Source: a virus
DNA: 20,083 nucleotides
IMG/VR virus record: IMGVR_UViG_3300031722_000189
Location: 1 to 20,083 of that record
Direction: 5' to 3' (one strand)
Each line of letters opens with the position of its first letter. Position 1 is the stretch's first letter. A model generated the notes under the pieces. That model worked only from the letters and a program-made list of their open reading frames with translations. It had not been told where the DNA came from and searched no databases. The translations under genes were made by a program, and so were the position numbers. This document shows, in pieces, positions 8,524-10,876 of the stretch.

Positions 8524-9015
8524 TTGGAAAAGATGGTACTTGACCCTTGCTGCGGCAGTCGGATGTTCTGGTTTGATAAACGAGATACCCGCGTCGTCTT
8601 CGGCGATATCCGAAACGAGACGATCACTGTGACGGATCGGTCGCACAAAGAAGACGGTACGCGCACCCTGAGCATTAAGCCGGACATGCACATTGATTTC
8701 CGTGCGCTGCCGTTCCCTGATGGCTCTTTCCGCCTGGTCGTGTTCGATCCGCCACATCTGGTCAGGGCCGGGGCCGATAGTTGGCTGAAGGCGAAGTACG
8801 GGAAACTGAACGTGGACACGTGGCGCGAAGATCTGCGAGCGGGGTTCGCTGAGTGCTTCCGGGTATTGCAACCCGGTGGAGTGCTGATTTTCAAATGGAA
8901 CGAAACGCAGATCAAGGTGAGGGAGGTTTTGGCGCTTACGGATCGGCGGCCGCTGTTCGGCCATCCCTCTGGCAAGCGGAGCAACACCCACTGGATTACG
9001 TTTCTGGCTGTCTAA
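8524..9015 (+). CDS. class I SAM-dependent methyltransferase
   Basis: A 163-aa Rossmann-fold methyltransferase. Motif I is LDPCCGSRMFWFDK, directly at the N-terminus; the acidic loop is FGDIR; then DFRALPFPDGSFRLVVFDPPHL provides the motif IV core with DPPH. The C-terminal GGVLIFKWNETQIKV and FGHPSGKRSNTHWITFLAV strands close the fold. I recall this LDPCCGSRMFWFD type from phages; DPPH suggests a DNA or other N-methyltransferase, but the substrate is unknown. TTG 8524 has AGGAG six bases upstream; ATG 8533 is too far from it. It may be one of three modification enzymes protecting the phage genome. Confidence 0.85.
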   Translation: MEKMVLDPCCGSRMFWFDKRDTRVVFGDIRNETITVTDRSHKEDGTRTLSIKPDMHIDFRALPFPDGSFRLVVFDPPHLVRAGADSWLKAKYGKLNVDTWREDLRAGFAECFRVLQPGGVLIFKWNETQIKVREVLALTDRRPLFGHPSGKRSNTHWITFLAV

Positions 9016-9314
9016 CTCTTAGATTGTACTTGTCCGAGATGCTCACCAACTCCTACAACGCTGTCAGACTCTTCGACCAGCACGCTTACGAGACACAGGA
9101 AGACTACCCTGATAAGAATTGGAAAGATTTTAGGCCTTAGGTCCACTTATCACCCTTCGAGAAGTGAGGTGTGTCGCCCCCGCACACCCTGCTCAAAGGG
9201 CCGACTCAGGTCGGGCACCTCCAAACGGAGAGGATCAACAGCGGCCAGAGCTTCTCCTTCGGGTCAAGGAGCTTAGGGGGCAGAAGCACATCTTCGAGGT
9301 GCAAAGGACGCGAT
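9016..9314 (+). other. gene-poor stretch before the cytosine methyltransferase
   Basis: About 300 bases without a confident gene. A 33-codon frame from ATG 9039 (LTNSYNAVRLFDQHAYETQ...) lacks a ribosome binding site but reads like real protein and may be a remnant. From GTG 9171 a frame continues into the gene at 9315. A third frame, ending at a stop near 9330, reads RPELLLRVKELRGQKHIFEV and is also protein-like. The mix of protein-like pieces in different frames suggests decayed or rearranged coding DNA. Confidence 0.4.
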
Positions 9315-9482
9315 ATGGAATGGTACACACCTGATGTGCCCAACGGAGGACGCTCACCAAAGATGCTGACCACGCAGACAGGGCGCAAGGCGGACGGGTC
9401 CAAGGCACAAGTAGCGCTGTCGAACCAGATAAAGATGTTTGAGACGGACGGACGGACGGACGGACGGAGCGAAGTGAGATGA
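9315..9482 (+). CDS. short ORF with a methyltransferase-like WxTPDVPNGGRS segment
   Basis: A 55-aa frame from ATG 9315, with AAAGGA six bases upstream; a longer version from GTG 9171 is possible. It reads MEWYTPDVPNGGRSPKML, then TGRKADGSKAQVALSNQIKMF and a repeat-encoded tail TDGRTDGRSEVR. The W-x-TP-x-x-PNGGR phrase with a following basic, Asn/Gln-rich stretch resembles the W-P-T-P blocks found in the variable C-terminal half of large phage cytosine methyltransferases. It may be a detached fragment or an N-terminal module. It ends as ATGA with the ATG at 9479 in the frame of the methyltransferase. Confidence 0.45.
   Translation: MEWYTPDVPNGGRSPKMLTTQTGRKADGSKAQVALSNQIKMFETDGRTDGRSEVR
9443..9466 (+). 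repeat. (GACG)6 tetranucleotide tract
   Basis: Six perfect copies of GACG lie inside the end of the ORF at 9315-9482, 40 bases before the likely start of the cytosine methyltransferase. Gain of one copy would place that ORF in frame with the methyltransferase with no stop between them. Such tracts are classic slippage sites. Confidence 0.9.
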
Positions 9483-9505
9483 TCAAATTCAGGAGGGAGT
9501 TGAAT

Positions 9506-10876
9506 GTGGATATTGCCGAAGAACATAGGCCCTTTAATGCAGTGGAGTTCTGCGCAGGTTACGCTGGCATCCATCTCGGACTCAAGCAAGCAATCCCGGC
9601 TTTGCGCGTCGTCGCTTTTAGTGAGATCGAAGCTTTCGCGGCAGCCAACCTGGTTGCAAAAATGGAAGCGGGACTCCTGGACGTCGCACCTATCTGGACG
9701 GATCTTAAGACCTTCCCTGGACTCGCGTTTCGCGGCAAAGTGGACCTCCTTGTTGGGGGATTCCCTTGCCAGGGATTCTCAGCGGCAGGTAAACGACTTG
9801 GAGACACCGACCCTCGGCATCTCTGGCCTTTCTTCGTCGAACAGATCAGACTCATGCGGCCAAGTTACTGTTTCTTCGAGAATGTCGATGGAATTATTAG
9901 CTCCAAGCTCACAGGCGAAGGATGGAATGATCCCCCGGGAACATCTGTTCTGCTCCATGTCTGCAGGGAACTGGAAAGACTGGGTTACGTCGCAACGGCT
10001 GGAGTATTCTCAGCGGCTGAAGTCGGCGCGCCTCACCAGAGAAAGCGAGTCTTATCCTTGCAGAAAGGCGAGGCGGCTGCCAGGCAGCCGCCGAAGGTAA
10101 ATCTCAGCGAGGATTGTCCCGCAGAGCGGTTGAGGAACTCACCGAACTTGGAAGCACAGGCGGGGATGTGGCCGACCGTCTCTGCGAGCGAGACGAAGCA
10201 GAACCAGTCCCCGCGAACAGCGGGGACTGCAGGAACACAGAAAAGCTTATCTGTGGAAGTTCTTTGGCCGACGATCAGCGTCAACGAGTCCAAGAACTCG
10301 GAGATGGGCAGTCAGGCGGCGAGTTCCTCGCCGCCGCTCGGAACGGCAGTACACCTCTTTGGCCCTCAAGACCTGGAGAGCCACAGCACTGGTGGGAGCC
10401 GCCAAGAACCAATCTCCCTTGGGTCCGAACCGCCAACAGACACCATGATTTTGAGTACCAAGTCGAAGAAGTTGAACCCTCGCTGGGTCGAGACCTTGAT
10501 GGGTCTTCCTATCGGCTGGACACAGCCGAGCTGTATGAATCCACTGACAATCGGGTCGATGAGCTGCGCCTCCTTGGAAACGGAGTCGTCCCCGCCTGCG
10601 CAGAGAAAGCTTGGAGAGTGCTGTTCACAAGGCTCAGAGGCGTCCGCCCAGGCGACGCCGTGCGCCCTTAACATCGACGAGTCCTACTACCAGAGAAGCG
10701 GGAATTTGGTGTACCCAGGGCTGGCGAAGCAAGTGAGGGATGAGGCGACGGCCTGGCCGTCGCCCAGAGCCTCCGACGCCGAGCACGGCGGCCCGAACCA
10801 GCGAGGGAGCAAAGGCGATTTAGCACTTCCGAGTGCAGTCCTTCAAGACTTCTCCGCACCCCTCTTCGACTTCTAA
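9506..10876 (+). CDS. dcm: DNA cytosine-5 methyltransferase, frame A
   Basis: A 456-aa protein. Motif I: VEFCAGYAGIHLGL. Motif IV: GGFPCQGFS with catalytic C88. Motif VI: FFENVDGI with E125-N126-V127. Motif VIII: GAPHQRKRV with QRKR 178-181. After residue 182 this frame leaves the usual family continuation and gives three WPT/WPS blocks (nt 10166, 10265 and 10754) and LNPRWVETLMGLPIGWT (10472-10522), all typical of large phage cytosine methyltransferases, but no motif X. The motif X segment lies in another frame of the same DNA (see 10021-10671). GTG 9506 is chosen because AGGAGG lies nine bases upstream in a leader shared with the gene at 7644; ATG 9479, overlapping the previous stop, is the alternative. 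Four long perfect inverted repeats lie in the C-terminal half. Confidence 0.85.
   Translation: MDIAEEHRPFNAVEFCAGYAGIHLGLKQAIPALRVVAFSEIEAFAAANLVAKMEAGLLDVAPIWTDLKTFPGLAFRGKVDLLVGGFPCQGFSAAGKRLGDTDPRHLWPFFVEQIRLMRPSYCFFENVDGIISSKLTGEGWNDPPGTSVLLHVCRELERLGYVATAGVFSAAEVGAPHQRKRVLSLQKGEAAARQPPKVNLSEDCPAERLRNSPNLEAQAGMWPTVSASETKQNQSPRTAGTAGTQKSLSVEVLWPTISVNESKNSEMGSQAASSSPPLGTAVHLFGPQDLESHSTGGSRQEPISLGSEPPTDTMILSTKSKKLNPRWVETLMGLPIGWTQPSCMNPLTIGSMSCASLETESSPPAQRKLGECCSQGSEASAQATPCALNIDESYYQRSGNLVYPGLAKQVRDEATAWPSPRASDAEHGGPNQRGSKGDLALPSAVLQDFSAPLFDF
10021..10671 (+). CDS. overlapping frame B: cytosine methyltransferase motifs IX-X
   Basis: This frame is open from 10021 to the stop at 10669-10671 but has no obvious start; the first ATG is 10114, without a ribosome binding site. 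It reads LILAERRGGCQAAAEG just where frame A should continue RV(F)ILA after motif VIII. It then gives WPSRPGEPQHWWEPPRT (10360-10410), VEPSLGRDLDGSSYRLD (10471-10521) and motif X RVDELRLLGNGVVPA (10552-10596). These are the C-terminal hallmarks of the same enzyme family as frame A. A -1 shift near 10051, or one inserted base there, would join the frames into a complete methyltransferase. So either both frames are used or one base was lost. Confidence 0.6.
   Translation, partial: SRRASPEKASLILAERRGGCQAAAEGKSQRGLSRRAVEELTELGSTGGDVADRLCERDEAEPVPANSGDCRNTEKLICGSSLADDQRQRVQELGDGQSGGEFLAAARNGSTPLWPSRPGEPQHWWEPPRTNLPWVRTANRHHDFEYQVEEVEPSLGRDLDGSSYRLDTAELYESTDNRVDELRLLGNGVVPACAEKAWRVLFTRLRGVRPGDAVRP

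Follow-up and report, generated by a model that had tools for sequence, protein, structure and literature searches.

The C5 methyltransferase locus of the window (i.e., the whole stretch of DNA analyzed here, a virus contig of 20083 bases) most probably derives from a two-polypeptide enzyme which is encoded twice over the same DNA, and the copy in the window has one base less. In related viral loci the overlap of the two reading frames is conserved, their start codons are paired, and the frames form a mosaic with respect to conservation; the window is shorter than these loci by a single base just 3' of motif VIII. In the following, alpha designates the methyltransferase frame and beta the +1 frame; frames A and B are the two overlapping open frames of the window.

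Reading frames in viral relatives

About 90 distinct viral relatives had an alpha frame with motifs I–VIII and X and a beta frame which was open across the gene and carried motif IX. The pattern of motif IX was found in beta in 91 of 94 relatives and never in alpha (0/94), that of motif X in alpha in 92/94 and in beta in 1/94. The relatives are metagenomic loci of shared ancestry, and these counts are therefore not independent events. Beta spanned 281–704 codons in the main family, corresponding to most or all of alpha. Among relatives L003–L172 the length of alpha (motif I to stop) varied between about 290 and 570 codons, and the beta WPT modules (WPTPxAxD...LxxQV, about 25–40 amino acids) varied in number in parallel; the varying region is located between motifs VIII and IX. 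The WPT modules may be exchangeable target-recognition units.

Comparison of both frames by tblastn, as proposed in the initial annotation, was carried out with the two halves of frame A (N and C) and with frame B as three queries and related IMG/VR loci as targets. In L003, L004, L005, L007–L010, L012 and L013 the N-half query of frame A matched in the same frame as frame B, this frame comprising motifs I–VIII and X; the C-half query with the LNPRWVE block matched in the +1 frame. The +1 ORF of these loci begins with MWIIPK-like residues at the methyltransferase start, spans the entire methyltransferase gene and extends in several cases beyond its stop. The overlap is more than a chance occurrence, because both frames have relatives in other viruses in the same mutual relation. 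Its conservation had been suggested correctly in the initial annotation, but was understated, since the overlap includes the whole gene and beta has its own start codon. Aligned with the single-chain enzyme of Gordonia phage Baddon, in which all motifs are on one chain, the beta block fell on the position of motif IX (E 1.6e-9); with classical enzymes its best match was on motif IX in 54/58 cases, at scores too low to count alone.

Selection on the beta frame

Stops in the +1 frame were counted in alpha-seeded non-redundant genes, leaving out the last 30 codons, and compared with the numbers expected when the synonymous codons of alpha were shuffled. There were 0.03 stops per gene versus 4.5 expected, the frame being stop-free in 57 of the 59 alpha-seeded genes; the first 150 codons of the beta frame contained 0 stops versus 143 expected. 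The +2 frame behaved as expected (14.3 versus 13.9 stops). Classical single-chain methyltransferases (n = 68) had 14.3 stops versus 16.9 expected, and none was stop-free (0/68); their mean GC content is lower (0.43, versus a range of 0.52–0.61), and six classical genes with GC > 0.48 gave a similar result (10.5 versus 12.8 stops).

Mean pairwise identities in alpha, beta and the third frame were.78,.58 and.55 for motifs I–VIII,.58,.95 and.60 for the motif IX block, and.81,.39 and.37 for the motif X block, and a 10-codon identity profile showed the same switch of frames between the blocks. Over the 17 residues of motif IX, 11 diverse loci were 81% identical in beta, against 46% for alpha and 41% for the third frame. 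As identity is high in beta only, the bases of motif IX are kept for beta and the alpha reading is passive.

Similarity of the N half of beta exceeded that after pair-preserving shuffling in 89–96% of pairs, compared to 37–39% for the control frame (stops unscored); the alpha-conditioned selection test was clear for the N half and lacked power in the variable region, given the drift of alpha there. Conservation of the beta N half was hardly above that of the third frame, with a modestly conserved stretch around RSKPSPxRTWxxKWKRDSW; this half seems to be mainly kept open. Rates at codon position 3 were 1.8–1.9 times those at position 1 in the N half, a ratio matching that of classical enzymes; for the C half the ratio was 1.0. 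In the beta tail, substitutions at beta codon positions 1, 2 and 3 numbered 5, 3 and 14 between the window and L008, and 4, 3 and 18 between the window and L007; the tail past the alpha stop evolves as coding sequence, including that of the window. Beta is thus under selection at the protein level at motif IX and in the tail. AlphaFold predicted beta alone as mostly disordered (pLDDT 51); for frame A pLDDT was 53, with the C half unresolved in the model, the alignment consisting of alpha rows only, because mixed alpha/beta alignments were misplaced by MAFFT.

Features of the window

Coordinates are compiled in Table 1. Frame A is open from 9479 to 10876 on the plus strand (465 aa) and matches PF00145 (E 6.8e-30); PCQGFS and ENV are present. 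The alignment reaches profile position 294 of 324, and its final residue, 348, is the last one of LNPRWVETLMGLPIGWT. Within frame A, alpha motif I is at 9551, PCQ of motif IV starts at 9758, ENV of motif VI is at 9878 and motif VIII starts at 10028. Frame B, open from 10021 to 10671 (plus strand), contains LILAERRGG as well as WPSRPGEPQHWWEPPRT, VEPSLGRDLDGSSYRLD and RVDELRLLGNGVVPA. Both frames are open where motif IX is read in frame A and motif X in frame B; methyltransferase motifs in two overlapping open frames, as described in the initial annotation, are thus present at 10021–10671. The window thus lacks a chain on which motif X follows motif IX, and in the relatives IX belongs to beta and X to alpha. 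Two 17-residue blocks on the same bases had also been reported; both readings exist, but only the block of frame A is selected as protein. That both blocks are functional is not supported, since the one in frame B is a shadow of motif IX, conserved only to the level of the third frame.

Table 1. Features of the methyltransferase locus in the window
Feature	Position	Strand	Evidence
Shine-Dalgarno-like AGGAGGG, common to both starts	9491–9497	+	sequence
Dual start ATGTG: beta ATG 9504–9506, alpha GTG 9506–9508	9504–9508	+	start-codon survey of relatives
Alpha frame, motifs I–VIII (first half of frame A)	9506–10051	+	PF00145; best-conserved frame
Beta ORF, N half, MWILPKN..., 198 aa	9504–10100	+	ORF list; intact in relatives
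Junction directly 3' of motif VIII, where frames swap	10045–10055	+	DNA alignment with L003, L007, L008, L009
Frame A from the junction on, corresponding to the beta frame of relatives; includes WPT modules, motif IX and tail	10052–10876	+	tblastn, ORFs, phrog_1008
Beta WPT modules: WPTVSASE 10169, WPTISVNESKN 10265	10169–10290	+	also in relatives
WPSRPGEPQHWWEPPRT, conserved alpha-frame block (frame B)	10360–10410	+	identity 0.8 in alpha versus 0.5 in beta
Motif IX LNPRWVETLMGLPIGWT, beta frame (frame A)	10472–10522	+	end of PF00145 match; frame identities
VEPSLGRDLDGSSYRLD, frame B reading of motif IX bases; shadow	10471–10521	+	alpha identity at third-frame level
Motif X RVDELRLLGNGVVPA, alpha frame (frame B)	10552–10596	+	identity; motif survey
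Frame B ORF from TTG, 185 aa, putative source of motif X	10114–10671	+	ORF list
Beta tail past alpha stop, single-coding; WPSPRASDAEHGGPNQRGSKGDL module at 10754	10672–10876	+	codon-position substitutions

DNA alignment showed the window to be one base shorter than L003, L007, L008 and L009 just 3' of motif VIII. One of the two explanations offered in the initial annotation, a lost base near 10051 with the other frame independently open, therefore agrees with the relatives, which are intact and in order. Owing to this loss, frame A combines motifs I–VIII with IX, and frame B retains motif X; relative to the related loci, the second halves of alpha and beta are exchanged. The ORF at 9504–10100 follows the beta frame until the lost base and thereafter the third frame to its first stop. 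The base is also missing from L002, a contig with a different record name and 1 difference from the window in 7395; a scan for close variants with 0–4 bases at the junction yielded the L002 contig only. A second break near the same junction was seen in L069 (2495–3760), in which alpha has one in-frame stop just past motif VIII and beta is intact.

Just upstream of the gene, at 9171–9482 of the window, a small ORF contains a beta-like module, EWYTPDVPNGGRSPKMLTTQTGRKADGSKAQVALSNQIKMFE, and behind this module a tandem repeat of GACG (DGRTDGRS). L008, too, carries a WPTP module ahead of alpha. The WPT modules appear to undergo duplication and shuffling. The same contig contains a Dam-like adenine methyltransferase ORF and a second small methyltransferase-like ORF, at 1850–2353 and 8524–9015.

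Start codons

The start codons of alpha and beta were at most 12 nt apart in 92 of 94 relatives; the start site had the form ATGTG in 54 and ATGACATG in 25. A Shine-Dalgarno-like motif was detected with a simple pattern in only about half of the relatives (45 versus 47). In the window, AGGAGGG is separated by 6 nt from the ATG at 9504 and by 8 nt from the GTG at 9506. With the beta start a few bases from that of alpha, one ribosome-binding site could serve both, and beta would be made by ambiguous initiation at the shared start. AUGUG initiates both frames in E. coli (PMC9841429). In the cases of ambiguous initiation at AUGUG or GUGUG (E. coli pqiA and tamA; Thermus rnpA-rpmH) the starts are likewise 2 nt apart and both frames are made (PMC9841429); in contrast to alpha and beta, however, the second frame there is not a demonstrated conserved partner subunit over the full gene.

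Proposed enzyme and alternative explanations

An active enzyme would need motifs I–VIII, IX and X. Alpha would supply I–VIII and X; beta, open in the +1 frame through the alpha coding sequence, would contribute motif IX, which alpha lacks, together with the WPT modules. By analogy with M.EcoHK31I, both chains would probably combine into a single enzyme, with an alpha-beta heterodimer as the functional form. A wider proposal, falling a little short of an even chance, is that several phage groups possess heterodimeric C5 methyltransferases from two co-initiated, fully overlapping frames, with selection alternating by block (I–VIII alpha, IX beta, X alpha). Single indels would then re-deal motifs between the chains and would not necessarily destroy the enzyme, the window being a natural case in which one chain has I–VIII with IX and the second chain has X.

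It could be argued that alpha works as a monomer complete in itself, the beta frame being open as a by-product of codon usage or of conserved DNA. Alpha does resemble a normal methyltransferase over motifs I–VIII, and the codon-position rates of its N half equal those of classical enzymes; but the synonymous shuffling and the control with classical methyltransferases, the lack of motif IX in every alpha, the conservation of the motif IX bases in beta only and the coding signature of the beta tail make this explanation very improbable. Equally hard to maintain is a programmed -1 frameshift near 10051 giving two C-termini from one gene, the other explanation in the initial annotation, which had pointed to an A-AAG and a perfect 10-bp hairpin nearby. 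The hairpin (10072–10092), situated in the variable region, is indeed an exact inverted repeat with a 1-base centre, but neither it nor the A-AAG is conserved in the aligned relatives, so that a conserved slippery site with stimulator is absent there and a frameshift gene of this kind was rejected. Beta is, moreover, stop-free from its own start far upstream, which a shift at 10051 would not require, and a single chain with I–VIII, IX and X would take two opposite shifts in the relatives.

For the missing base itself, a sequencing or assembly error in a virus with the usual arrangement would account for the fact that all relatives except the window and L002 are in frame, and that no further contig without the base appeared among close variants. 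Against an error, which is considered rather unlikely, stand the two contigs of different record names, although these could stem from related samples or from one co-assembly, and the nature of the site, which is no long homopolymer. If the deletion is real, the gene in the window may be decaying, with motif X severed from the main chain. Frame A lacks motif X, and frame B has no convincing start: TTG at 10114 is the only one and poor, and the Shine-Dalgarno-like GCGAGGA abuts it, much nearer than usual. On the other hand, both frames are open past the junction, though a recent loss would look alike; and phages Firecracker and Jumbo have I–VIII and IX+X on separately annotated ORFs, and a supply of motifs in trans is therefore plausible. 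Decay thus appears quite possible, if on balance somewhat doubtful. For the origin of the locus, derivation from a doubly encoded two-polypeptide enzyme is preferred. Points against it are the largely disordered prediction for beta alone, the unresolved C half in the frame A model, the near third-frame conservation of the beta N half and the detection of a Shine-Dalgarno-like motif in only about half of the relatives.

Known enzymes and overlapping genes

The small chain of M.EcoHK31I (YGGCCR) is read in an alternative frame within the large gene. Its large subunit carries motifs I–VIII and X, the small subunit IX only (PMC3404938), and, according to the title of a paper cited there, two proteins are required in vitro. 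The relatives resemble this enzyme in motif layout, on which the likeness is based: alpha has I–VIII and X without IX, beta supplies IX, and the small chain is likewise in another frame of the large gene. They differ from it in belonging to phages of many hosts and in having WPT modules in beta; in the main family, beta also starts with alpha, spans most or all of it, and one site serves for both starts. The window copy departs from the M.EcoHK31I layout by having I–VIII and IX in one frame.

The two-subunit C5 methyltransferase M.AquI has both IX and X on its small subunit (PMC3404938). It resembles the present system in that a second chain provides the end of the enzyme, the catalytic motifs being on the first, but in the main family motif X stays with I–VIII. 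The M.AquI-type layout was encountered in mycobacteriophage Firecracker, Gordonia phage Jumbo and the MAG contig L186. In Firecracker (gp6/gp5; L187, 598–1543) and Jumbo (gp35/36; L188, 700–1591) one ORF has motifs I–VIII and the following ORF IX+X, gp6 and gp5 overlapping each other; in L186 (2980–4800, a draft MAG) beta has IX and X in series, and alpha has many stops past motif VIII.

Phage methylase genes can also hide a second protein out of frame in the case of the ShiLan-type HNH endonuclease (PMC11855218). This endonuclease is a homing insertion; beta would instead be part of the enzyme, uses the motif IX bases and overlaps gene-wide. A hidden HNH insertion was rejected for beta, which had no match in Pfam above the curated cut-off and none in NCBIfam, and matched phrog_1008 instead.

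Distribution and annotation

The alpha-seeded scan of IMG/VR gave 547 relatives and the beta-seeded scan at least 500, of which 80 were kept per scan. Among annotated phages, the frame pair was present in Paenibacillus phages Bloom and Sitara and Lacticaseibacillus phage R9.1, and also in phages of Synechococcus, Acidovorax, Acinetobacter, Klebsiella, Stenotrophomonas, Salmonella and Vibrio. The block pair was the same in the phages of Paenibacillus, Lacticaseibacillus, Acinetobacter and Synechococcus. In the Paenibacillus phages and R9.1 the beta start is internal to alpha, and stops occur in the beta frame before that start. A search of plasmids for beta found one record, a Leptospira plasmid with the same block pair; in genomes, three loci had beta, two being from Verrucomicrobia records. 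The gene of the Klebsiella phage had a match in 4 of 5426 E. coli genomes. Frame B gave no match with annotated phages, and its C half alone three weak matches; its relatives came from IMG/VR.

Beta proteins matched phrog_1008, "DNA methyltransferase", at 1e-11 to 6e-72, and are therefore already grouped under a methyltransferase name; this family name is silent on the overlap and on the division of motifs. A PDB search with the beta profile gave no match. Beta is annotated in Bloom and Sitara as a second methyltransferase or as "g59 internal gene". The annotations of Acidovorax phage Alfacinha3 and Vibrio phage 1.236.O give beta as the CDS and leave out the catalytic frame. Loci annotated in this way are L175 961–2127 (named methyltransferase), L193 501–1199, L174 1210–2139 and L178 872–1987.

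Implications

The two-polypeptide principle was already known; the overlap plan described here occurs in phages of many hosts, often at full length from a shared start. No description of such an overlap in phages was found in the open-access literature subset searched. To our knowledge, few conserved same-strand overlaps between phage genes would be longer. The overlap explains why either frame may be labelled by gene callers, as in Alfacinha3 and 1.236.O. Loci of this type would allow ambiguous initiation at AUGUG to be tested directly in a natural setting in which there is a functional reason for reading both frames. If true, both products would be parts of one enzyme, and the two frames must therefore co-evolve base by base.
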